The notes beneath the pieces are model-generated. The model saw only the letters and a list, made by a program, of their open reading frames with translations, ran no database searches and was not told the DNA's origin. This document shows, one piece after another, positions 8,361 through 25,888 of a DNA stretch of 56,656 nt. Numbering within the stretch: the stretch's first letter is position 1; each line of letters opens with the position of its first letter. The DNA comes from Chloroflexota bacterium (GTDB lineage Bacteria > Chloroflexota > Anaerolineae > UBA4142), in the NCBI GenBank assembly GCA_016219275.1, contig JACRBM010000036.1, positions 1 to 56,656 on the forward strand. The letters are read 5' to 3'. The translations under genes were made by a program, and so were the position numbers.

Positions 8361-9050
8361 TCAATCCACTTTGAGACGATACCCCACTCCCAGCTCGGTG
8401 ACGAGATAACGCGGACGCGCGGGATCGTTTTCGATTTTGTGGCGCAGTTGTCCCATGTGCACGCGGAGAATTTGTGTTTCGCTCGCGTATGCCGCGCCCC
8501 ATACTTGGATGAGCAATTGACGATGCGTGACGACCTTGCCCGCGTAACGCGCGAGCGTCGTCAGCAATTTGTACTCCGTCGGCGTGAGATGCACTTGCTC
8601 CGCGCCGACGAAGACTTGGCGTTGCGCCAGGTCCACGCGCAGATCGCCCACGACGAACACGGGTTCGTCCATCGGATGCGCGTTCGCAAAATGACGCAGA
8701 CCCACGCGAATGCGCGCGATCAATTCGCCAACGCCGAACGGCTTGGTGAGATAATCGTCCGCGCCGGCATCGAGCGCGGCGATCTTGTCGTTCTCTTGCC
8801 CGCGCGCGGAGAGAATGATGATCGGCGTGCGCGACCATTCGCGCAGTTGCTGGATGACGACCAAGCCGTCCACGTCCGGCAGACCGAGATCGAGAATGAT
8901 GACGTCGGGCGCTTGCGTGCTCGCGAGCGCGATGCCGTCTTTGCCGGTCGCCGCATCGCTGACACGATAGCCGTGATTCGTCAACGTCGCGCGCAAAAAT
9001 CGGCGAATCGGTTGTTCGTCTTCGACGATCAACACGTGCGGCTCATTCAT
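8361..9050 (-). CDS. kdpE: KdpE response regulator
   Basis: A 229-residue OmpR-family regulator. The receiver (1-115) has the acidic pair in IVEDE, the phospho-acceptor Asp in VIILDLGLPDVDG (near 54) and the Lys in YLTKPF. The C-terminal winged helix (about 130-227) ends in LVTELGVGYRLK, typical of KdpE. The gene overlaps kdpD by 8 nt, which indicates translational coupling. KdpDE normally controls the KdpFABC potassium pump, but no kdpFABC genes are in this window. The likely local target is the KimA-like transporter at 11910, whose upstream region has a KdpE-like tandem repeat. Confidence 0.95.
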   Translation of the reverse strand: MNEPHVLIVEDEQPIRRFLRATLTNHGYRVSDAATGKDGIALASTQAPDVIILDLGLPDVDGLVVIQQLREWSRTPIIILSARGQENDKIAALDAGADDYLTKPFGVGELIARIRVGLRHFANAHPMDEPVFVVGDLRVDLAQRQVFVGAEQVHLTPTEYKLLTTLARYAGKVVTHRQLLIQVWGAAYASETQILRVHMGQLRHKIENDPARPRYLVTELGVGYRLKVD

Positions 9051-11715
9051 TCGGCTTGATCTCCCGGGGCAGTTGAACGTGAAACACCGCGCCGCCCTCC
9101 GCGCGATTCGCGACCCAGATTTTTCCGTCGTGCGCTTGCACGATGCCGCGACACACCGTCAAACCCAAACCCACGCCGCCGCTATTCGTCACGCCGGGCG
9201 CGCGATAGAACTTGTCGAAGATGCGTTCTTCATCGCCGGGCGCGATGCCCGGTCCGTGATCGGCAACCTGGACGACGACGTGCTCGCCGACGACCGACGC
9301 GTTGATTTCGATGGGCGACGCGGGCGGCGTGTACTTGATCGCGTTTTCCAGCAAGTTGATGAGCACTTGCTCGATGAGCACGCTGTCGAAGGGCACGAGC
9401 GGCAACGTGTCCGGCAAACAGGTGGTGACCGTGCGCCCGCGCAAACGACTATCCAGACGCGCGAGCGCCGCGCCGATCACTTCTTCGAGCGAATTCCATT
9501 CGGGCTTGACCCGAATCGCGCCCGACTCGATGCGCGTCATATCGAGCAGGTTGCGAATCAAACGATTCAACCGTTCCGCTTCGTCGTAGATCGTCTGCGC
9601 CAATTCGCGCCGCGCGTCCGCGTCCACATCCATCTCGCCTTCGAGCAACGTGCTCGACGCGCCGGTAATCGCGGCGAGCGGTGTTCGCAAATCGTGCGAG
9701 ACGGAACTGAGCAACGAATTCCTCAGGCGTTCGGTTTCGATTTGCACTTGAGCTTGGCGCGCTTGTTCCGCCAGCCGATTGCGTTCGAGCGCGAGCGCGG
9801 TTTGGTTGGCGAAGGTTTCGAGCAAATGAAATTGTTCCGGCGCGAGAAAACGTTTCGCGTCGGCGGGCTGGACGCCGATGACGCCAATCGTTTTGCGCGA
9901 GGCGGCGAGCGGCATGTACAACGCGCGCGCGCCGGGCAAGGTTTCCGTTCCCAGCCCGGCGGACTGGCTGTGTGTGAACACCCACTCGGCGACGCCTTGT
10001 TCGTTCGTATCCAGTTCGAACGCCGGCGCGCTCGTTTGCGTAGGCGTCAGCGCGCCCAGATGATCGGGCAACAGAATCGTGACCTGGCTATTAAAGACGC
10101 GGTGAACATGTTGCGTCGCGATGTGCGCCAACCGTTCCCGGCTCGACGTGCCGGCGAGATCGCGACTGAGTTCGTACAGCGCGGCGGTGCGGCGTTCGCG
10201 TTCGTGCGCGACCTCGGCGAATTGTTGATACCGCGCGGTCAGCGTGCTGATCGTCGTCGCGACGACGAGCATCACGCCAAACGTCAGCAGGTACTGCACA
10301 TCGGCAACGGCGAACGATAAACGCGGATTGATAAAAAAGAAATCGAACGCGAGGACGCTGAGCACCGACGCGGTGATCGAGGGTCCTAGTCCAAAACGCG
10401 CGGCGACCAGGACGACGCCGAGTAAAAATAGCAACACGATGTTCGCTTCGCCGAAAACGTGTGAAAGCAATGCGCCCAGCGCGGTGCACACGCTCACGAC
10501 CACGATTGCCCCGGCGTACGGCAGCCACGCGAGGTGCGGCGCGGCGCGCGGTCGCGCGTGCGTCTTGACCGGTTCGCCCGCGTCGGTGATGATGTACACG
10601 TCAATGTCGCCGCTCTTGCGAACCAGGTCTTGTACGACGTTGCTAAATAAAATCGAATGCCAACGCGCGCGGCGCGGTTTGCCGACCACGATTTTCGTCG
10701 CGTTGTGTTCGCGCGCAAAGCGCAGCAACTCGTCGCTCGTGTCGCGACCGGCGAGCGTGAAGGTGAGCGCGCCCAGGTCTTCGGCGAGACGCAGGTTCTG
10801 CGTGATCAGGTCGCGCGCCGCCTGAGACAGGCGCGTATGTTCCGGCGTTTCGACATACACCGCGATCCATTCCGCGCGCAACGCTTGCGCCATGCGGCTT
10901 GCCGCGCGCAACAGTTGGATCGCGAACGGGCTAGGTCCGATGCTGACGAGCAAGCGTTCGTTGATGGGCCAGGCGTGATCAATCGCGTGCGCGCGCATGT
11001 AATCTTGCACCAACTCGTCTACGTGGTCGGCGGTGCGGCGCAGCGCGAGTTCGCGCAACGCCATCAAATTGCCCTTGCGGAAAAAATGGTGTCCAGCGCG
11101 CTCGGCGGGTTGCGGCACGTACACCTTGCCTTCGCGCAAGCGTTGCAGCACGTCGTCCGGCGCGAGGTCAATCAGTTCGACTTCATCGGCGCGTTCGAGG
11201 ACGGAATCGGGAATCGTTTCGCGGACGACGAAGCCGGTGATTTGCTCGACGACGTCGTTGAGACTTTCGAGGTGTTGGACGTTGACGGTGGTGTACACGT
11301 GAATGCCGGCGTCGAGCAGTTCCTCGACGTCTTGCCAGCGTTTCGCGTGGCGCGCGCCGGGCACGTTCGTGTGCGCGAGTTCGTCCACGAGGATAAGCGC
11401 CGGTTTACGCGCGAGCGCGGCGTCCAAATCCAACCCGCGTACGCGCGCGCCGTGATACTCGACGACGCGCGGCGGCAATTGCTCCAAGCCGGCGACCAGG
11501 GTTTCGGTTTCGGCGCGTCCGTGTGTTTCGACGTACCCGATCAACACGTCCGCGCCCTGCGCTTTTTGCGCGAGCGCGGCTTCGAGCATCGCGTACGTCT
11601 TGCCGACGCCGGCGACGGGACCCAAAAAAATCTTCAATTTGCCGCGCGGTTTGAGCGAATCGTCGCTATGAACTCGCGCCGGCGTTTCATCTGGGTTAGA
11701 AGGGTGGTCTTGCAT
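9043..11715 (-). CDS. kdpD: KdpD sensor histidine kinase
   Basis: An 890-residue membrane kinase of normal KdpD length. In order: the KdpD domain with Walker A-like GPVAGVGKT (32-40) and LVDELAHTNVPGARH, a universal-stress-protein-like domain (about 245-370), four membrane helices (about 390-490, including VVLVAARFGLGPSI), a GAF-like segment, the HisKA box SVSHDLRTPL and the ATPase lid with NLLENAIKYTPP, DHGPGIAP and GLGLTVCRGI. The ATG at 11715 was chosen over longer forms because the sequence before it is repeat-rich DNA with no homology to kinases. In characterised systems KdpD senses potassium limitation and, in some Firmicutes, its USP-like part binds c-di-AMP. Confidence 0.96.
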   Translation of the reverse strand: MQDHPSNPDETPARVHSDDSLKPRGKLKIFLGPVAGVGKTYAMLEAALAQKAQGADVLIGYVETHGRAETETLVAGLEQLPPRVVEYHGARVRGLDLDAALARKPALILVDELAHTNVPGARHAKRWQDVEELLDAGIHVYTTVNVQHLESLNDVVEQITGFVVRETIPDSVLERADEVELIDLAPDDVLQRLREGKVYVPQPAERAGHHFFRKGNLMALRELALRRTADHVDELVQDYMRAHAIDHAWPINERLLVSIGPSPFAIQLLRAASRMAQALRAEWIAVYVETPEHTRLSQAARDLITQNLRLAEDLGALTFTLAGRDTSDELLRFAREHNATKIVVGKPRRARWHSILFSNVVQDLVRKSGDIDVYIITDAGEPVKTHARPRAAPHLAWLPYAGAIVVVSVCTALGALLSHVFGEANIVLLFLLGVVLVAARFGLGPSITASVLSVLAFDFFFINPRLSFAVADVQYLLTFGVMLVVATTISTLTARYQQFAEVAHERERRTAALYELSRDLAGTSSRERLAHIATQHVHRVFNSQVTILLPDHLGALTPTQTSAPAFELDTNEQGVAEWVFTHSQSAGLGTETLPGARALYMPLAASRKTIGVIGVQPADAKRFLAPEQFHLLETFANQTALALERNRLAEQARQAQVQIETERLRNSLLSSVSHDLRTPLAAITGASSTLLEGEMDVDADARRELAQTIYDEAERLNRLIRNLLDMTRIESGAIRVKPEWNSLEEVIGAALARLDSRLRGRTVTTCLPDTLPLVPFDSVLIEQVLINLLENAIKYTPPASPIEINASVVGEHVVVQVADHGPGIAPGDEERIFDKFYRAPGVTNSGGVGLGLTVCRGIVQAHDGKIWVANRAEGGAVFHVQLPREIKPNE

Positions 11716-11730
11716 AGGTTGAGTCCAATA

Positions 11731-11806
11731 GCCAGATGGCAGATGGCAGAAAGCAGAAAATCTGAATACTGAATACTGACGACTGGCGACTGGCGATTGA
11801 CAACTG
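11731..11806. repeat. Short doublet repeats upstream of kdpD
   Basis: Several short words occur as adjacent pairs: AGATGGC twice, GAATACT twice and GACTGGC twice. No inverted half is present, unlike the arrays at other gaps. It separates kdpD from the terminator of the transporter gene and may be a decayed member of the word-repeat class. Confidence 0.45.
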
Positions 11807-11846
11807 AATTCTAGCACAATCACGCACGATGCGCCAATGCCCCGAA

Positions 11847-11885
11847 CAAAAAACGCGGGATTGACCATTGGGTCAATCCCGCGTT
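11847..11885 (-). terminator. Intrinsic terminator downstream of the KimA-like gene
   Basis: A perfect 15-bp stem (11852-11866 with 11871-11885, core AACGCGGGATTGACC) with a 4-nt loop is followed, reading the minus strand, by a T-run (the A-run at 11848-11853). It lies 24 nt after the transporter stop and should separate that gene from kdpD. Confidence 0.9.
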
Positions 11886-11909
11886 GAGTGTGAGGCGTGT
11901 GGGCGCGGA

Positions 11910-14018
11910 TTATTTTTCGAGCAGGTGTGGTACGAGAACCACCGCGACGTTCGGATGCTTTTCGAATGTGCCGCGTAAACGCGCGGCAGTACGATTGTGC
12001 AAGAACCTCTCCCACCAATGCGCCGTAATAAATTCCGGCAAGACAATCGTCACGAACGCATTGGGGCGTTGACTATGGATCGCATTGACGTACGCGAGGA
12101 GCGGGCGCACGAACGCGCGATACGGCGAGTCAATCATCACGAACTTGAGATCGGGCGCATACTGCTCGGCTTTTTGGCGAATCTTGTCGGCGCGCTCGGC
12201 ATTCGTCGAAATGTGGAGCAGGACCGCGTTGCGTCCAATCGTGCGCGCGAACGCGATCGCGCGCAGCGAGGCGTAGTTGATGTCGTCAATCGGTACCAAC
12301 ACGAGTTGGTCTACGGTGGTGGATGGCACATGCCCGGGAATGACTCGCAATTGATTTGCTACGTGCGTATAGTGCCGGTGAATGAAGAGAAAAAATCCGG
12401 TGATGGCGGGAATCAAGAGAACGACGATCCATGCGCCCAGCGCGAATTTCGTGACGGCGACGATGACCAAGATGCTGGAAGTCAAAACGGCATCCGCGCC
12501 GTTGATGATAATGCTCCGCTTCCAACCGGGTCCCCGTGTTTTCCACCAATGCACGACCATACCTGAATCCGACATGCTAAACGCGAGGAACACGCCGACC
12601 GCGTACAGGTGAATCAGATTATTCACGTCGCCGGCAAAGAGGACGACCAGCAACGCGGCGATAGTGCCCAGAGAAATAATGCCAATCGAAAAAGCCAGGC
12701 GGTCGCCGCGGAAAGAAAATTGATGCGGCATGTAATTATCGCGCGCGAGGACGGAGGACAAGCGCGGGAAATCGGCGAAGGCGGTGTTGCCCGCAATAAT
12801 CAAAATGCCCATCGTCGCGATTTGGAAAATGTAGTAGACAAAACCAGTGCCCCAAACCGCGCGCGCGACCTGGGAAATGATCGTTTCCTCGCCGGGCACG
12901 AGTTCCATGTGGGTTGCCAAGTACGAGACCCCCAGAAAGAAAACGCCGAGCAAGGTTGCCATGATCGTCAGCGTCGTCGCCGCATTTTTGGATTCAGGTT
13001 TTTCAAACGCCGGCACGCCGTTCGAGATGGCTTCGGTCCCACTCATCGCGACCGACCCGGCGGAAAAGGCGCGCAAGATCAACCACAGCGTCAGCGGCTC
13101 GGTGGCAGGGATTATTTCCGGCGGTGTGGCAGGCGCGAGTGTGCCAGTGAACGCTTTGTACAAGCCAACCGCCAAAGTGACGATGAGACTGCCAATGAAC
13201 AAATAAGTGGGCAACGAAAAAATCGCGCCGGATTCGCGAATGCCGCGCAAGTTGCCTAACGTCATCACGGTGATAAAGAACACACTCAACAGCACGTTGA
13301 CATTCAAGTTATGCGGCAGGGTTGCGTTGATGGCGTTGATCTGATCGCCATAACCCGAAGCGATGATTGCCGAACCAATGGCGGCTGACCCGGCAACGAT
13401 CGAGACGGAAACGGTCAAGACGTAATCAATCAATAGCGCCGATGCCGCGACCAAGCCCGGAATTTGTCCCAGGTTTTCGCGGCTGACGTTGTACGATCCG
13501 CCGCCGTGCGGATACGCGTAGACGGTCTGGCGATAAGAGAACGCCACCATCGAGAGCAACAGAGAAACCGCCAAGGCGAGGAAGAAGGAAATACTGAGCG
13601 CGCCGCTGCCTGCCGCGATCAAAACCAACATCGCCTCTTCGGTGGCATAGGCGCAGGATGAAATCGGGTCGGAGCCGAATACGGCGAGCGCCTTGAATTT
13701 GTTGAGCCGCTCGTGAATCTCTTCCGCGTTTTCGAGCGGATGCCCGATCAACACTTTTTTGACGGCGCGATAACTTTTTTCGAGTGCGCTCGACGGGCGG
13801 TCCGATTCGGGCGTCGCGACAAAATGACCGGGACCGACCCAGCGGAGAAATCGTTCGTGCAGATGCGCTTTGCGAACATAGACATCGCCCGGACGTGTGC
13901 CGCGCCGAAATTCGGTGACGGTCAAATCGGGATTGAGTTTCTCGGATCGCGGATCGGATGTTGCGTCTGAAAAATGATTGTCGCTATCCGGGAAAGGTGA
14001 AGCATCGCGTTTGTTCAT
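11910..14018 (-). CDS. kimA: KimA-like potassium importer (APC superfamily) with USP-like tail
   Basis: A 702-residue integral membrane protein. After a cytosolic N-terminus (about 1-105) comes the family hallmark LAVFGSDPISSCAYATEEAMLVL (about 113-135), then about 12 hydrophobic helices of the LeuT/APC fold to about residue 545. The segment AYPHGGGSYNVSRENLG marks the second and third helices. The soluble C-terminus (about 560-702) starts VLVPIDDINYASLRAIAFAR, a USP-like alpha/beta domain as in KimA (YdaO) homologues. KimA is a proton-coupled, high-affinity potassium importer. The ATG at 14018 avoids an upstream extension lacking family features. I did not recognise a c-di-AMP riboswitch upstream; the KdpE-like repeat there points to KdpDE control. 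Confidence 0.82.
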   Translation of the reverse strand: MNKRDASPFPDSDNHFSDATSDPRSEKLNPDLTVTEFRRGTRPGDVYVRKAHLHERFLRWVGPGHFVATPESDRPSSALEKSYRAVKKVLIGHPLENAEEIHERLNKFKALAVFGSDPISSCAYATEEAMLVLIAAGSGALSISFFLALAVSLLLSMVAFSYRQTVYAYPHGGGSYNVSRENLGQIPGLVAASALLIDYVLTVSVSIVAGSAAIGSAIIASGYGDQINAINATLPHNLNVNVLLSVFFITVMTLGNLRGIRESGAIFSLPTYLFIGSLIVTLAVGLYKAFTGTLAPATPPEIIPATEPLTLWLILRAFSAGSVAMSGTEAISNGVPAFEKPESKNAATTLTIMATLLGVFFLGVSYLATHMELVPGEETIISQVARAVWGTGFVYYIFQIATMGILIIAGNTAFADFPRLSSVLARDNYMPHQFSFRGDRLAFSIGIISLGTIAALLVVLFAGDVNNLIHLYAVGVFLAFSMSDSGMVVHWWKTRGPGWKRSIIINGADAVLTSSILVIVAVTKFALGAWIVVLLIPAITGFFLFIHRHYTHVANQLRVIPGHVPSTTVDQLVLVPIDDINYASLRAIAFARTIGRNAVLLHISTNAERADKIRQKAEQYAPDLKFVMIDSPYRAFVRPLLAYVNAIHSQRPNAFVTIVLPEFITAHWWERFLHNRTAARLRGTFEKHPNVAVVLVPHLLEK

Positions 14019-14157
14019 TTGAGTGCCTTTGAAATCGGATCTCTGCGCGTTCGCGAAAAACAGAGTGGGAACTACTCGAAATAAAACGAACGCGCGCGCC
14101 TTAACGGAAAAAGCATAATGCGAGAAGCCATCAAATTGCGATAAGGAATTTGCAAGC

Positions 14158-14179
14158 CGCATAAAGATCGTATAAAGAT
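14158..14179 (-). promoter_or_regulatory. KdpE-like tandem box upstream of kimA
   Basis: On the minus strand ATCTTTATACG is followed immediately by ATCTTTATGCG, two 11-bp units differing at one base. The half-site core TTTATAC and the 4-bp spacing before the second TTTATGC match, from memory, the E. coli kdpFABC operator arrangement (TTTATAC-N4-TTTACAC). It lies about 140 bp upstream of the transporter start. The matching sensor pair is encoded just beyond that gene. Confidence 0.6.
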
Positions 14180-15419: not shown

Positions 15420-16268
15420 TCAGTCGTCACGGTTTGAATCAGCCACCGACCAATACAGCAGCGCGGTGCGAACGGCGGGGGGCCAAACATATTTACCCTC
15501 CACAACAGTCAGTCGGCGCTGCGCGAGGTCTAGCAGAAAAGCGTCATGCTGGTCAATCTGATCTAGCCCCATCCGATGCTTGATCTGTTGGACGGCGTCT
15601 GCCAAACTATCGTTTGACCACGGTTCCCACAAGCCGGAATCTTCCATCAACACGTTCGGAAAAATTCCCATTTGAAGCAAGGCATTGAACGCGACCTGAA
15701 AATTCGGACTATCGTGCGGATGTCCCCAGATGTGCTGGGCGGCTTCCGCCATCACGCCATCTATCGTCGGCGCGCGCAAAAGTAGAAAACACATTTGCCG
15801 CGTGACCGCCTGCATCCGCTCGATGAACAATCGAAAATCCGGCGCGCCGTACATCGCATGCGCGCACAATGTAAAATCGTGCGTAGCGACTTGCGCGTGG
15901 GGCCATGCATCTTGCGCCATGTCCACGTTCGTGATGTTTGCGTCGGCGAGGTTCTGTCGCATTCGTTCGATCATGCCGGGCGAGGGTTCGAGCGCGGTGA
16001 TGCGACGCGCGTGCGGCGCGAGCAGAACCGCCCATTTGCCAGTGCCCGCGCCGATGTCGAGCACGGTCGCGTTGGGAAATCGGTCTAACGTCGCCACGAT
16101 GAATGCGCGGCTCGAATCGTTTTTCGTCCAGCGCCGCCGCACTTGCGCGTCAAAGTCGTGCGCGCGGTTGCGCCAACGATCCTGGCTCTCCGCGGGTTGG
16201 TTCGCTTGGTGCGTCCACGCGTGGACTTGCGCCAATTCACTCCAGAGTTCTAGCCAATCCATCAGCAT
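15420..16268 (-). CDS. SAM-dependent class I methyltransferase
   Basis: A 282-residue methyltransferase. The SAM-binding motif I is VLDIGAGTGKWAVLL (about 69-83), followed by an acidic strand end (ITALEPSPGMIERM, about 92-105) and a motif-II-like segment HDFTLCAHAMYGA. The substrate cannot be told. A second ATG two codons downstream is an alternative start; GAGGAT lies just upstream. It follows modC by 32 nt on the same strand and is probably the last gene of the padR-modABC operon, so a link to molybdenum use is possible but unproven. Confidence 0.82.
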   Translation of the reverse strand: MLMDWLELWSELAQVHAWTHQANQPAESQDRWRNRAHDFDAQVRRRWTKNDSSRAFIVATLDRFPNATVLDIGAGTGKWAVLLAPHARRITALEPSPGMIERMRQNLADANITNVDMAQDAWPHAQVATHDFTLCAHAMYGAPDFRLFIERMQAVTRQMCFLLLRAPTIDGVMAEAAQHIWGHPHDSPNFQVAFNALLQMGIFPNVLMEDSGLWEPWSNDSLADAVQQIKHRMGLDQIDQHDAFLLDLAQRRLTVVEGKYVWPPAVRTALLYWSVADSNRDD

Positions 16269-19773: not shown

Positions 19774-20268
19774 GTGACTGACTACGACGACTATGAAGAC
19801 AGCGTGGACGCTGACCCGCCTCCAACCATTCGCGAGTGGCTCGCGCACTTGTCGCCAGCGCGCCAGTTGGGTTATGGTTGCGCGTTCATTCTTATTCTCG
19901 GCGCGCTCACGTTGTATTGCGGCGGTACAGTTAGTTTGCTCGCGCGCCCGATGTTGTTGCAACGTCCTCCTACCGCGACATTTGTGCCCACGCCGACGCG
20001 CGCGCCCACCGCGACCCAGCCTCCGCCAACATTCCTGATTCTACCCACCGGCAGACCGCCTGCCACACCCACCCAAGCGCCGATTCCCACACGCGAACCC
20101 ACGGCGACGCCGACGCTCATCGGCGATCCGACGACTGCGCCAATCACCGGGACTGTGACGATTACCGCGACGGGAACGGCGCGCCCCAGTCCATCACTAA
20201 CCGGCAGAACCACGAACACCGTCACGCCCACGCGACGATTGACCGGGACAGTCGCGCCCAAGCCATAA
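19774..20268 (+). CDS. Small single-pass membrane protein with Pro/Thr-rich outer tail
   Basis: A 164-residue protein of unknown function. An acidic N-terminal part (1-30, presumably cytosolic) precedes one hydrophobic segment (about 34-57, GCAFILILGALTLYCGG). The rest (about 65-164) is low complexity, dominated by PTPT, ATPT and PPT repeats, a common spacer type in Chloroflexota surface proteins. The start is a GTG; no ATG is available in frame. It is supported by a good promoter and by a terminator directly downstream. No domain beyond the membrane helix can be assigned. Confidence 0.65.
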   Translation: MTDYDDYEDSVDADPPPTIREWLAHLSPARQLGYGCAFILILGALTLYCGGTVSLLARPMLLQRPPTATFVPTPTRAPTATQPPPTFLILPTGRPPATPTQAPIPTREPTATPTLIGDPTTAPITGTVTITATGTARPSPSLTGRTTNTVTPTRRLTGTVAPKP

Positions 20269-20329: not shown

Positions 20330-20373
20330 AAAAAACTCTTGCGAAGACGTCTGCTCTTCGCAAGAGTTTTTTT
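20330..20373. terminator. Bidirectional intrinsic terminator
   Basis: An 18-bp perfect stem (20330-20347 with 20355-20372, arm core CTCTTGCGAAGA) has A-run and T-run on its two sides, so it can terminate transcription from both strands. It separates the convergent gene at 19774 (+) from the ATPase gene at 20372 (-), whose stop codon lies in its T-run. Confidence 0.9.
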
Positions 20374-22036
20374 ACTGCGGAATCATCTTGAAGATTTTTT
20401 GAATTCCCCCGAGCGCGCCTTTGACTTTTTGGAGATTGCCCACCCAGGTCGTCACCAAACCAATCAAGCCGATCAAACTTACGTACACCGATTTGATGAA
20501 CGCCGAATAATAATCCACTTTGAACTCGGCGCTCTGCGTCTGCGGCGGACGCCCGGGCGACTCGCTCTGAAAAATCAGATCCACGCGCCGCGTCTCGGTC
20601 GCCGGCGCAAACGGATTGTAGGGCAGTTCGCGCTGATTAAGAAAAAACGAAAAGGTTTCCGTGCGCCGCTCGGTCGCAAACCGTTTCTGATGCTCGCCGA
20701 GCACTACCATGTCCGGGGCATTTTCGCGCAACACGACCACGACCGGCGTCAGCGCGCGCGTGTGTTCCAGGTCTACCGTGATGGTCACCGGCGCATTCGG
20801 ACGAAGCACGTCATCATAGCGAATCAACGTGTAGATATTCCACCCCTCCGGCGCAAATACCTGGTTGACCGGGTGCGCGCCAAGCATAACATCGCGTAGA
20901 TAAAAAAACATCAACGGCACATTGATTGCAATGATCAGCGCCATCAAAACCAGCACCACGGGTTTGGCGCGCATGAACAACGTGCGCGCCGTGCGCGCGC
21001 CGCCGCCGATTTGATACAACCGCTTGAACGCTTCATCGTAGATTTGGTTCCGCACAACGCACTGACCCGCATCGCGAATCGCGCCGGTCAATTCCAGGCG
21101 CGCAAGCTGCGGATTGAGCCGGCTGAACGGCACGGCATCGCCCGCCACGATTCTGCCAAGCATATTTTTCGAGTTCGGCTCGCTCTCGATGTCCACGATC
21201 ATTTTTTCGAGATGATCGTCGCCGCGCAACAAATCTTGCGCGCACCGCTCCACCATCTCTTGGCTCAACGTCTTGGGCTGACGTTCGGCAATCATCGCGC
21301 ACAGTTTTTGCGTGAGGTACGGATGCCCGCCGGTGCGCGCGTGAATCCACGTGGCGGTTTCCGGCGGAATTACCAAACCGAGCCGTTGAAAATTCTCGGT
21401 GAGTTTTTCCACGCCGGCGCGCGTAAAATCCTGGAGATAGACTCGCTCGGCGATATTGAGCGGCGAGTTACTGCCGCTCGTCAAGCGGCTCAACTCCTTC
21501 GCGCCCGACAAGACGACGAGATATTTTTCGAACGCCGGTTCCTTGTGCCGCGTGGAGAACACGCTACGAAACGTGCCAAAAAATCCGTCGGATAATTTGG
21601 CAGGCACGGCTTCCACTTCGTCGAGCAACAGCAAGATGCGCATGGCGGTCACGCGGCGCGCCGTTTCGAGCATAAAGTTTTGGAACTCGACCGCGGTCGT
21701 CGGCAAGGTCGCCTTGGGATCCGCCTTGGGTAGTAATTCCTGGCGCATCGCGCGCGCCACAAAGTTGTAGAGTTGCGCTTCGGGTTGATCCTGTACACTG
21801 CCCAGATCAATCAACACGACCGCAAACCCGGGCGAGCGCAGGCACGCGGACACTTGGTACAACAGCGTCGTCTTGCCGGTTTGACGCGAACTGAGCAACG
21901 CGACGTACGCATCTACTTGCGACGCACGCGCGAAACGTAATACCTGGGTCAGTTCCGGGCGCGCGACCAAAATCGCGCCGTCTTCATCCGGGTCGAGTGG
22001 ACCGCGTGTTTTGAAAATTGCCGGATCAGTTGACAT
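20372..22036 (-). CDS. Membrane-bound AAA-like (STAND-type) ATPase, partner of the propeller ATPase
   Basis: A 554-residue protein. The N-terminal cytosolic part is a P-loop ATPase of the AAA-like/ORC-CDC6 type: Walker A RQTGKTT (51-57), Walker B LLLLDE (135-140), a sensor-like VVLSGAKEL (175-182) and the TGGHPYLTQKLC helix (about 235-246) typical of this family. A winged-helix-like segment follows (about 300-345). One membrane helix lies at about 358-380, then an extracytoplasmic beta-rich domain (about 381-512), then a second membrane helix (about 516-533). Its ATG sits 11 nt inside the end of the upstream gene with a GAGG site in that gene, so the two are translationally coupled. The family is recognisable, the biological role is not known to me. 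Confidence 0.82.
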   Translation of the reverse strand: MSTDPAIFKTRGPLDPDEDGAILVARPELTQVLRFARASQVDAYVALLSSRQTGKTTLLYQVSACLRSPGFAVVLIDLGSVQDQPEAQLYNFVARAMRQELLPKADPKATLPTTAVEFQNFMLETARRVTAMRILLLLDEVEAVPAKLSDGFFGTFRSVFSTRHKEPAFEKYLVVLSGAKELSRLTSGSNSPLNIAERVYLQDFTRAGVEKLTENFQRLGLVIPPETATWIHARTGGHPYLTQKLCAMIAERQPKTLSQEMVERCAQDLLRGDDHLEKMIVDIESEPNSKNMLGRIVAGDAVPFSRLNPQLARLELTGAIRDAGQCVVRNQIYDEAFKRLYQIGGGARTARTLFMRAKPVVLVLMALIIAINVPLMFFYLRDVMLGAHPVNQVFAPEGWNIYTLIRYDDVLRPNAPVTITVDLEHTRALTPVVVVLRENAPDMVVLGEHQKRFATERRTETFSFFLNQRELPYNPFAPATETRRVDLIFQSESPGRPPQTQSAEFKVDYYSAFIKSVYVSLIGLIGLVTTWVGNLQKVKGALGGIQKIFKMIPQ

Positions 22037-25000
22037 GGATTGCCTCGGTGCCTTTTTGAATTTCTTCGGTGTAGCTCATCACCAAACCGTAAATGTCCTG
22101 ACTGCGCCGGAGAACTTCGGGGAATGCTCTGGCAGCGAACGCGTACTTGGGTCCGTCGCGGCGTAAGATCGAAAAGAGACACAGATCGTCGAATGCCATT
22201 TCCAATTGAGCGGGCGGCACGCGCAAGTCACGCGCGCGCAACATTTCCGCCATTTCGCCCGGCGTCACTTCGGGATGTTCGAGCATCACCAACGTGATAA
22301 GCCGTTCGAGCGAACTTGCCGCGCCCCACGACACTTCGGCAAAGTACTCGGCGAATTGCGCCGACTGCGCGAGGGCGGACACATCGACGCGCGTAATGAC
22401 GCGTTCGCGCCGCGCATTGATGCGCTCGACCAACTTTTGGCAGATGTACTGCACGATGTTCGGATGTCCCGCCGCCAACTCGACGATACGATCCGGCAGC
22501 GTATGTTCGTCATCCAACGCCACGCCCATATCTTGCATCGGGTCAGTGATGACGCGCCGCGCTTCATCGCGCGCGAGGTACGACAACGGCATCAAGTTGC
22601 AAAAGTTGAAAAAGACGAGGTTCGGATTGTGCAGAGCCAAGTTGAGTGTTTTCTCGCCGCAGAACACAAAACGCGTTTTCGCTTCCTGCGACAAGGCGCG
22701 CAAGATCTGGAACAACCGCTCGCCATTCGCAATGTCGTGCGCGAGCAAGTCGTCAATTTCGTCGAAGAGCATCACGATGACGCGCTGGGGGTACTGCGCG
22801 GCGACATCGCGCGCCATCGCGCGAAATCCTTCGAGATCGCGGGATGGCAGCGGCAATTGCCACATCGTGTCTACCGCGCTAAAAAACTCGGTGTGATTAT
22901 GCACCGCTTGGCAATCGAGATAGAGCGGACGGTACTCGGGCGAATTCTTGAGCATGTGATGGACGCGCGCCAACACCGAGGTCTTGCCGATCTTGCGCCC
23001 GCCGACGATTGCAAAGTTCGTGTCGCGCACGGTGCGGACAATCGTCTTGAGTTCGTGTTCGCGACCGAAGAACATGTTCTCCGGCACCGGACCACTCGTG
23101 ACGTACGGCGATACGACCGTCAAATCTACCTGATCGAGAATCAACTCGACGAGGCGTCGCGATGGATCGCGCGCGCCAAGCAAACGGCGAATGTCCATCC
23201 CATCGAGCACGATGAAATCGTGCGCGCCTTCGCGGACGATGCGTTTCAACGAACGGCGACTGTCGTCTGCCGGAACATCGCGTAGGTCAATCACCAACGC
23301 AAAGTAACTGACCATATTCAGGATGTTCATCATATCGCGCAATTCGTTCAAGTCGCTGGGACTGGTGTCTTGACGCGGCACAAAAATGATTGGAAAGCGC
23401 GGCGGAATTTTCAAACGCAACGCCGGCGCTTTGACCACATACCCAGCCAGTCCGTGATACGTGCGATCTTCGACGCGCGCGAAACCCAGCAGCTCGCACA
23501 GTTGGTCTACAATCTGACTCGTGACCGACAGGAACGCGTCTTCGCTTTCAACGACTTCCCAGGCGGCTTTCCAGTGACGCAGAAATTTTTGCGCGGCGGC
23601 GAAGGTTTCTAATTTGAGCGACGCCGGCGCGAGTTGCAAATCCAATGCGTCCCGGGGATGCTCTTCGGCATACCGCCGCAGCGAACGCGAAAGATAGCGG
23701 CGCGGCAATTTGCTCAGATTCGCCGCGTTCGCTTCGCCATTTTTCCATAACGCTTGCGTGATCGCGCTTTCCCATTGCGAATACTCGCGTCGCCACGATT
23801 GATCTTGCGCGACCGGCGATAGACGCGTACGCCACGCGAACGCGCCAGCGAACAACACGACGATTGCCGATACGAGCGCGCCGATCAACGCGCCGATCGC
23901 GAACACATCCGGTCCCACCACCTTGAGACGATCCACGCCGGCGACGACGCCGCTGCCATTCGTGCCGACGAACAAGCTCGTCGCGGTCTGCGGGTCTACC
24001 GCAATCGAAAGCACGTCGGCAACGACGAGACCTTCGTTCGCCGCCGCCCAGGTCGCGCCGGCATCTTCACTGCGATACAAGCCGCGGTCCGTGCCGACGT
24101 AGACCACGCCGGGCGACCCAGGATTGAGCGCGATCACTTGAAAACGCGCGCGCGCCGGGAACGCGCCGCGTCCCAGGGCTTGCCATTGCGCGCCGGCATT
24201 GTCGCCACGGTAAACGCCGGCAGAAGCAAAACCGATATAGAGCGATTGCGCGTCCGCCGCGAGCGTGCGCACTTCATCTTGCGGCAGATCCGTTCCGGTG
24301 AGCGCCTGCCACGCCGCGCCCGGTTTCGCCATGTCGAGCCGGAACAAGCCGCGTTCGGTGCCGGCGTAGAGCGTCGCCGGCGATACGAACACCAACGCGG
24401 TCACGCGCGACACGTCGCCGATCCCGTTCGTTTGCCGCGCCCAGGTTTGTCCCTTATCCGTACTCTTGAACAACCCGCGTCCTTGCGTGCCGGCGTACAA
24501 CTCGGTCGTTGTCCCTGAACTGGCAAAGGCGAGACTACTGATCGGCGTATTCGGTGCGATGCTTTCGATCACGCGCGCAAACGTCGCGCCGCCATCGCGT
24601 GAAACGAACACCGCGCTGCCCCAAGTGCCGGCGTAAATCGTTTGATCGTCCGCCGGATCGCGCGCGAGCGAAATCACGTACGGATCGCTCAAACCCTGCG
24701 CGTCGCGCCAACTTGCGCCGCGATCGCGGCTGATGTGCAAACCGAAACGCGTCGCCGCGAACAGCGTCGGCGGATTCCCCGGCGCGAGCATCAACGCGTG
24801 AATACTCGTGTTGACGAGTCCAGTGTTGAGCGCCTGCCAACTCGCATTGTCGTCCGCGGTCTTCCACACGCCGCGCACCGTGCCGGCGTACACCGCGTTC
24901 TTATCGCCAAATGCAAGCGTCAACACCGGCGCATCGCCGGGGATGCTCTTGACCTGAGACCAATTCGCGCCGGCATCGGTCGAACGCCACACGGTTTGCG

Positions 25001-25790
25001 CGATGACCGCAAACACGCGGTCCGGCTGCCGTGGGTCACTCGCGAGCGGCTTGACCAAACCGTTCGCCAACGTGCCGGTCACCGCGCTCCACGACTTGCC
25101 GTCGCGACTGCGAAACAAACCCTGGGTCGTACCAACGAGTAATCCACTTTTTGTCGCAGCGATAGATTGGGGACGCGCACCCACCGGCAAACCGTCGGCA
25201 CTGGCAAGCCAGTGCGCTCCGCGATCACGCGAGACATAGATGCCCGCGTCGGTCGCGGCAAATACGCCCTCTGCTAAAATCGCGATGCCGGAAACGCGCG
25301 CGGCGGGCAAATCGCGATTGACTTCGCTCCACGCGTCGCCATTGTTGTCGCTGCGTAACACCGTCGTCGCGGTACCCGCATAGAGCATCCCGGTCACGGG
25401 ATCGCTTGCCAGCGTAAAAATAATTTGCTCCGCGATGCGCGGGTCGGTGAGCGTCCAGGTCGCACCGCCATCGTTTGTGCGATACACGCCCGTCTGTGTG
25501 CCGGCAAGAACCTGGGTCGGCTCGCGCAGAACCACGAGCGAATTCACCGTCAAATCTTCCGCCAACCCTTTAGACGCCGGGTCCCAGCGCGCGCCATCGT
25601 CGCGCGTGACAAACGCGCCGCCGTTCGTGCCGGCATACGCGACCCCCGTGGCAATTGCGAGCGCGTTGATTTGTCCACCGGCCGGTCCACCAGTCGACGA
25701 CCATACGACCCCACCATTTGCGAACGCGGTGGGGGTTAAAGAAAAGAGCAAACACAGTCCAAGCAAAAATAAAACACGCCGTTGGGTCAC
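22026..25790 (-). CDS. Surface double beta-propeller fused through one helix to a cytosolic ATPase
   Basis: A 1254-residue transmembrane protein. A signal peptide (1-26) is followed by about 14 repeats of a BNR/Ycf48-like blade with the pattern LYAGT..GLF.S.D.G..W (about 30-615), enough for two seven-bladed propellers outside the cell. One membrane helix (about 622-645) leads to a cytosolic half: a linker (about 650-850), a REase-like or regulatory segment ending VVSPYVTSGPVPENMFFGRE, and a P-loop ATPase with Walker A GGRKIGKTS (about 929-937) and Walker B VMLFDEIDD (near 1007), then a winged-helix-like end. The GTG at 25790 was chosen because GGAGG lies 7 nt upstream and it starts the signal peptide; a TTG nine codons earlier is the alternative. 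A strong promoter lies at 25860-25888. Confidence 0.85.
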   Translation of the reverse strand: MTQRRVLFLLGLCLLFSLTPTAFANGGVVWSSTGGPAGGQINALAIATGVAYAGTNGGAFVTRDDGARWDPASKGLAEDLTVNSLVVLREPTQVLAGTQTGVYRTNDGGATWTLTDPRIAEQIIFTLASDPVTGMLYAGTATTVLRSDNNGDAWSEVNRDLPAARVSGIAILAEGVFAATDAGIYVSRDRGAHWLASADGLPVGARPQSIAATKSGLLVGTTQGLFRSRDGKSWSAVTGTLANGLVKPLASDPRQPDRVFAVIAQTVWRSTDAGANWSQVKSIPGDAPVLTLAFGDKNAVYAGTVRGVWKTADDNASWQALNTGLVNTSIHALMLAPGNPPTLFAATRFGLHISRDRGASWRDAQGLSDPYVISLARDPADDQTIYAGTWGSAVFVSRDGGATFARVIESIAPNTPISSLAFASSGTTTELYAGTQGRGLFKSTDKGQTWARQTNGIGDVSRVTALVFVSPATLYAGTERGLFRLDMAKPGAAWQALTGTDLPQDEVRTLAADAQSLYIGFASAGVYRGDNAGAQWQALGRGAFPARARFQVIALNPGSPGVVYVGTDRGLYRSEDAGATWAAANEGLVVADVLSIAVDPQTATSLFVGTNGSGVVAGVDRLKVVGPDVFAIGALIGALVSAIVVLFAGAFAWRTRLSPVAQDQSWRREYSQWESAITQALWKNGEANAANLSKLPRRYLSRSLRRYAEEHPRDALDLQLAPASLKLETFAAAQKFLRHWKAAWEVVESEDAFLSVTSQIVDQLCELLGFARVEDRTYHGLAGYVVKAPALRLKIPPRFPIIFVPRQDTSPSDLNELRDMMNILNMVSYFALVIDLRDVPADDSRRSLKRIVREGAHDFIVLDGMDIRRLLGARDPSRRLVELILDQVDLTVVSPYVTSGPVPENMFFGREHELKTIVRTVRDTNFAIVGGRKIGKTSVLARVHHMLKNSPEYRPLYLDCQAVHNHTEFFSAVDTMWQLPLPSRDLEGFRAMARDVAAQYPQRVIVMLFDEIDDLLAHDIANGERLFQILRALSQEAKTRFVFCGEKTLNLALHNPNLVFFNFCNLMPLSYLARDEARRVITDPMQDMGVALDDEHTLPDRIVELAAGHPNIVQYICQKLVERINARRERVITRVDVSALAQSAQFAEYFAEVSWGAASSLERLITLVMLEHPEVTPGEMAEMLRARDLRVPPAQLEMAFDDLCLFSILRRDGPKYAFAARAFPEVLRRSQDIYGLVMSYTEEIQKGTEAIHVN

Positions 25791-25819
25791 GGCAATCCTC
25801 CAGCGTACATTACTCAATC

Positions 25820-25859: not shown

Positions 25860-25888
25860 ATTATAAATGAAAGAGAAGGCAAAGTAAA
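25860..25888 (-). promoter_or_regulatory. Sigma-70-type promoter of the propeller/ATPase operon
   Basis: Reading the minus strand: TTTACT (25888-25883), a 17-bp spacer, then a perfect TATAAT (25865-25860). Predicted leader to the GTG is about 60 nt. Confidence 0.75.

Follow-up and report, generated by a model that had tools for sequence, protein, structure and literature searches.

The window analyzed here, a stretch of 56,656 nucleotides, is contig 36 of a 6.16-Mb draft genome (G000). It contains two minus-strand genes, which we designated A and B (Table 1), and their ORF coordinates agree with the 11-nt overlap described in an earlier, sequence-only reading of this DNA. The longest ORF of gene A (22026-25817) opens at TTG 25817, from which residues of A are numbered here; GTG 25790, the start chosen in that reading, is preferred because GGAGGA is located 5 nt upstream. 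The two genes form an operon closed by a terminator, as had also been claimed. Folding of the strand gave a near-perfect hairpin (-25.6 kcal/mol, z -5.9), which was missed by an automated terminator scan with a loop limit of 8 and which, being symmetrical, could also serve a convergent gene. The strong promoter claimed for the operon did not rise above chance: one promoter-like site matching at 10/12 positions was found upstream of A, compared with 0.5 expected. A gene convergent with B (19774-20268, plus strand) encodes a small protein that has a single helix and a tail rich in Pro and Thr; this protein recurs in the same place at four further loci of the family and had no Pfam match. Elsewhere in the window, a gene for a KdpD sensor kinase with an N-terminal extension (9043-12018, minus strand) is overlapped by a permease-like gene (11910-14162).

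Table 1. Features of the A-B locus (positions in the window)
Feature	Position	Strand	Remarks
Gene A, surface propeller STAND ATPase	22026..25790	-	1254 aa from GTG 25790
Gene B, AAA_35 STAND ATPase and membrane module	20372..22036	-	554 aa
A, Asp-box beta-propeller ectodomain	23922..25706	-	13-14 blades, behind signal peptide
A, single transmembrane helix	23832..23909	-	Residues ~637-662; hydropathy and helix in model
A, cytosolic alpha/beta domain	23103..23612	-	Residues ~736-905; characteristic of A family
A, STAND-type ATPase with lid and winged helix	22029..23102	-	Walker A GGRKIGKTS, Walker B FDE, HPN motif
B, cytosolic STAND ATPase	21002..22036	-	Walker A RQTGKTT, Walker B LDE, GHPYL motif
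B, transmembrane helix 1	20897..20965	-	
B, outer beta domain	20507..20884	-	~125 residues, predicted model
B, transmembrane helix 2	20432..20503	-	C-terminus basic
Ribosome-binding sequence GGAGGA	25796..25801	-	5 nt before GTG 25790
Intrinsic terminator hairpin	20330..20372	-	Directly after B stop codon
Promoter-like site TTTACT-17-TATAAT	25860..25888	-	Single 10/12 match

Protein A consists, in order, of a signal peptide, Asp-box propeller blades, one transmembrane helix with basic residues on its inner side, an alpha/beta domain and a P-loop ATPase. Thirteen Asp-box-like anchors, 40-46 residues apart between residues ~70 and 590, together with a last repeat give 13-14 blades, close to the 14 proposed earlier, and the proposed arrangement of one membrane helix and a P-loop ATPase holds as well, with both Walker motifs kept. 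In the profile searches that had been suggested for each domain, the repeats of A matched BNR, sortilin-Vps10, Ycf48 and GH74/xyloglucanase-type propellers, and B was assigned to AAA_35. The NCBIfam family glycosyl_F510_1955 also reached its cut-off on A, a score which probably arises from the summed repeats. Between the transmembrane helix and the ATPase, a helical segment is followed by the conserved alpha/beta domain of ~170 residues, for which no Pfam or PDB sequence match was found (residues 736-905). Its alpha-beta-beta-beta-alpha-beta order had suggested an Mrr/restriction-endonuclease-like fold, but neither Pfam nor PDB sequences supported this and a conserved D...(D/E)xK set was not visible, so the domain is left unassigned. 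Within the family, identity is 48-59% in the propeller versus 65-76% in ATPase residues 906-1095.

Protein B matched Pfam AAA_35 (PF14516) with 74.1 bits over residues 36-338 (cut-off 27), whereas A scored 19.5 bits against the same profile, below the cut-off. The C-terminal part of B was modeled as nine strands between two helices (block pLDDT 60-89). Together with the AAA_35 match, this model bears out the P-loop ATPase with two membrane helices and an outer beta domain described earlier. The outer beta domain had no Pfam or PDB sequence match, and no recognizable catalytic domain is present in the B of the window. A search of the B structure against viral structures returned mostly clamp-loader-type AAA proteins.

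AlphaFold models were built for residues 640-1263 of A (29 sequences, mean pLDDT 89) and for B (12 sequences, mean pLDDT 81). The best structural matches of both were the archaeal ATPases 2qen/2fna, followed by ORC2, RPP1, G10, CED-4 and Apaf-1. Against 2qen, ORC2, RPP1, CED-4 and Apaf-1, Z was 15-23 for the A ATPase and 14-22 for the B ATPase; the A model reached Z 18.6-18.9 to RPP1 and G10 over ~305 residues and 16.6 to CED-4, and the B model 17.1 to CED-4 and G10. The longer alignments covered ~300 residues and included the winged helix. A PDB match is evidence of fold, not of function. In 12 orthologs each of A and B, the Walker A and B motifs are invariant save for one Thr-to-Pro replacement in Walker A of B, and the GxP lid motif is an invariant GHP in B and xHPN in A, the first residue being variable. 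The two ATPases are also detectably homologous to each other. By their predicted structures, both are STAND-class switches with AAA, lid and winged-helix parts. The surface propeller and the layout expected for passing an outside signal to an ATP switch, both suggested earlier, are supported.

Conserved pairing in relatives, one of the points on which the proposal of a new system had been made to depend, was found in the family of the window (Anaerolineae, Chloroflexota), where A and B are adjacent in 11 of 14 genomes, and it recurs in other phyla. Of the other three family genomes, two without the pair have a completeness of 70-78%, and both genes are also absent from G010, which is 96% complete. 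In the genome of the window both are single-copy, other matches being weak. In a sample of 60 genomes, B was present in all 14 A carriers and A in 14 of 15 B carriers (Fisher 8.6e-13, uncorrected for kinship); outside the window's family, the same sample had B in 3/3 A carriers and A in 3/4 B carriers. Sixteen further genomes carried A, most of them without an adjacent B, and in 14 a B homolog was located somewhere in the genome. A was detected at E 1e-60 in 33 of 396 genomes of the class, all labeled Anaerolineae/Chloroflexi, and an even sample of 400 genomes of the phylum at E 1e-50 added one carrier (G708). Searches of genome contigs with B alone gave no relatives; those with the A alignment did. 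Adjacent pairs were also present in two genomes of a second family (f9) and, beyond Chloroflexota, in genomes labeled Bryobacterales, Atribacteria, Aminicenantes, UBP9 and the cyanobacterium Stenomitos, labels which may be wrong for draft bins. As the genomes are labeled, the A-then-B order occurs in six phylum-level groups with differing modules. Where starts are clear, the spacing ranges from -26 to +157 nt, the genes usually overlapping by 4-26 nt or being less than 160 nt apart. In the tree of the A family, f1, f9, f43 and f4+f8 formed supported groups.

Neighbors of the pair in the window are molybdate transport genes and mevalonate-type enzymes (identified by Pfam, partly by sequence reading). 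In three families (f9, f38 and f43), A is located directly behind dnaE (Pfam-checked in L086 and L050, by similarity in others); the gene order dnaE-A-B in f9 bridges the dnaE-A and A-B arrangements. Divergently oriented FemAB-like, S1 and ClpC genes adjoin A in most f1 genomes, and one pair (L100) is situated between topA and mutS. With dnaE, clpC, mutS, topA or metabolic genes as neighbors, the pair is inherited as a core locus and is not part of a defense island, an association which the sequence-only reading had put forward for checking. PADLOC (2023 library) gave only weak matches to the ATPase regions of the pair itself, PDC-S27 (3.5e-4) and PDC-S60, and only partial matches beside it, to a methyltransferase (15420-16268) and the ModC ATPase, which were judged incidental. 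No MoxR or vWA gene was found among the Pfam-scanned neighbors.

Relatives keep the A-family ATPase followed by the B-family ATPase but differ in the modules attached to them. Front ends of A included the double propeller with its helix, Tubulin_2 (L150, L156, L157, L161), TIR (L206) and HEAT (L170). The tail of B was the module of two transmembrane helices flanking a beta domain (TM-beta-TM) at 13 loci of f1 and f9; in other B proteins it was CHAT (L053, with CHAT fusions in L052 and L113), TIR-like (L051, recognized by eye, and L085, a CAP12-PCTIR), Pkinase (L160, L161, L167, L171), guanylate cyclase (L150, L157), SpoIIE phosphatase (L158) or caspase (L206). This swapping would place the variable sensor side on A and the variable output side on B, and is the strongest clue to how the pair acts; the split is not absolute, since L206 carries TIR on A. 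A rule that a propeller on A goes with a membrane module on B was rejected. It is contradicted by f38 and by L102, in which a propeller A is next to a soluble B carrying an inserted EAD7. Both f38 and f43 keep the propeller in A, with a B that is unlinked and has no membrane module; the f38 ortholog is a CHAT-AAA_35 fusion (Pfam-checked in L113, read from sequence in others). Upstream of the propeller-less A of G025 and G021, no separate propeller gene was found, the genes there being a kinase and a histidine kinase.

Several other architectures were detected in the course of this survey. In L150-L152 and L157, a tubulin-like (FtsZl1-type) domain is fused to the A-family STAND, an unexpected front end of cytoskeletal type, and the partner is a guanylate-cyclase B; passages of a study of the FtsZl1 tubulin-like family link it to vWA operons and do not mention STAND (PMC2875224). 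In another example, L101 (3977-9924, G119 contig 94), the B of the A-B pair bears a short helical hairpin; an FHA-kinase precedes the pair, and behind it comes a SIR2-nSTAND1 protein that ends in four helices. In the same family as the window, L058 and L059 (G013 contig 815, G011 contig 198) share a conserved operon of two STAND ATPases, a GAF-HATPase sensor, a response regulator with TCAD9, an M29-like peptidase and a Band-7 protein, which looks like a second multi-component STAND system. Tandem AAA_35 proteins in L054 (G004 contig 38, 228-4521), trypsin-TIR-AAA_35 and AAA_35-FGE-sulfatase, resemble described conflict systems in architecture.

With moderate confidence, we propose that A and B act together as a two-STAND relay spanning the cell membrane, A sensing outside and B giving the output, a design suggested by the module swapping in relatives. 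What was observed is the coupling and conservation of the genes, signals of membrane topology, intact ATP motifs, STAND folds by prediction, and the swapping of modules. The outer propellers of A would bind a surface ligand or envelope signal, and the single helix would pass a conformational or clustering signal to the cytosolic part, where, following the STAND paradigm, the ATPase would be released for nucleotide exchange. A would then nucleate B, whose homologous ATPase would assemble with it; gene coupling, co-occurrence and the shared ATPase class argue for such an assembly. The C-terminal tail of B would deliver the output; in relatives, profile searches identified protease, kinase, cyclase, phosphatase or TIR-like domains in this tail. 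Since the tail here is a pair of membrane helices with the outer beta domain between them, the output is most likely exerted on the membrane or on outer partners, and may be gating, permeabilization of the membrane or an outward signal.

Two views of what the pair is for are compatible with such a relay or bear on its purpose. A conflict-type immune or programmed-death system, in which A recognizes a phage or competitor and B kills by permeabilizing the membrane, is a real possibility that we hold tentatively. Relatives of A and B carry CHAT, caspase and TIR, all classical effectors of cell death, one B carries EAD7, the predicted folds match resistosomes and apoptosomes, and bacterial STAND systems act in this manner according to passages of published work (PMC7159879, PMC8195603, PMC10907252). 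However, the pair is single-copy, syntenic and located beside dnaE, clpC or metabolic genes outside defense islands; the kinase, cyclase and phosphatase outputs are ordinary signaling enzymes; and the propeller, at the identities given above, is not hypervariable. The vertical, syntenic core locus, its adjacency to dnaE in three families and the FemAB-like, S1 and ClpC neighbors in f1 fit a housekeeping sensor of the envelope, by which A and B would monitor cell wall, S-layer or surface polysaccharide and adjust growth or division. The GH74/xyloglucanase-type matches make carbohydrate binding by A plausible, which is in line with this role. Yet the occurrence of A in only 33 of the 396 class genomes and the near-complete G010 without the pair indicate that it is dispensable, and relatives carry death-type effectors, so we regard this purpose as conceivable but somewhat doubtful.

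Against the relay stand the f38 and f43 arrangements, which show that a propeller sensor does not need the membrane module, and L102 with its soluble B. The beta domain of B could also serve as another sensor and not deliver an output. In the fuller form of this idea, it is a co-receptor that meets A outside, both ATPases belong to one receptor, and the output is a third, unlinked protein. The TM-beta-TM module is found on B in 13 of 14 operonic pairs with a propeller A and in none with a propeller-less A, and the window's B has no recognizable catalytic domain. Those 13 cases, however, fall in only two families and so represent few independent events; the module occupies the position of the outputs in relatives; and the f38 propeller proteins have no TM-beta-TM partner. 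We consider a co-receptor rather unlikely. That A and B work separately and owe their order to operon layout agrees with their being unlinked in f38 but is highly improbable given the A-B order kept across six phylum-level groups despite differing modules, usually with overlaps of 4-26 nt or gaps under 160 nt, and the co-occurrence and joint loss of the two genes.

The claim that no described system has this pairing is supported by the papers searched. The pair was not found in the open-access journal literature searched, nor in passages of papers on conflict systems and STAND proteins (PMC7159879, PMC8195603, PMC10907252), and the literature searched contained no description of the family with a defined function. 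The ATPases, on the other hand, are of a known kind, because both are recognizable as STAND-type and B belongs to AAA_35; it is the pair that may be new. STAND, NLR and apoptosome ATPases (CED-4, Apaf-1 and RPP1, and bacterial Avs and bNACHT) share the AAA-lid-winged-helix fold, a GxP-type motif and sensor and effector ends. In characterized bacterial STANDs, according to passages of PMC10907252, a single polypeptide holds both effector and sensor, whereas the pair divides sensor and output between two STANDs and has an extracellular sensor behind a membrane helix. B differs from AAA_35 proteins by its transmembrane tail, which bears an outer beta domain absent from Pfam, and by its regular partner A. 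As passages of PMC7159879 and PMC8195603 indicate, the NTP-dependent conflict systems of Kaur and Aravind (VMAP, iSTAND, FtsH, beta-propeller ternary) have in common with the pair an NTPase core, variable effectors, propellers and presence in Chloroflexi; unlike them, the pair consists of two STANDs with intact motifs and a propeller outside the cell, and has no MoxR or vWA gene in the neighborhoods scanned. Asp-box repeats are common to A and to sortilin/Vps10, Ycf48 and GH74 xyloglucanase, but in A a membrane helix connects them to a STAND in the cytosol. Two-component signaling is an analogy only: it also combines a membrane sensor with a separate output protein whose output domains are swapped, whereas the pair has no phosphotransfer domains and both partners are STAND ATPases.

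Kept in relatives from several phyla with sensor and output swapped, the A-B pair points to an undescribed two-protein relay resembling the immune switches of animals and plants. A broader formulation, which we offer with some reserve, is a general, so far undescribed design of bacterial signaling in which A as the sensor STAND and B as the output STAND are encoded back to back and sensors and outputs are freely swapped; the Anaerolineae version would be an outward transmembrane receptor triggering a membrane-embedded STAND effector, a cell-surface counterpart of the apoptosome. The pair is a compact two-gene unit suited to expression and testing. If the relay is real, caspase/CHAT, TIR, kinase and cyclase outputs would be linked to one shared relay, and the NLR/apoptosome design would extend to cell-surface signaling, with sensing and output on two STANDs.
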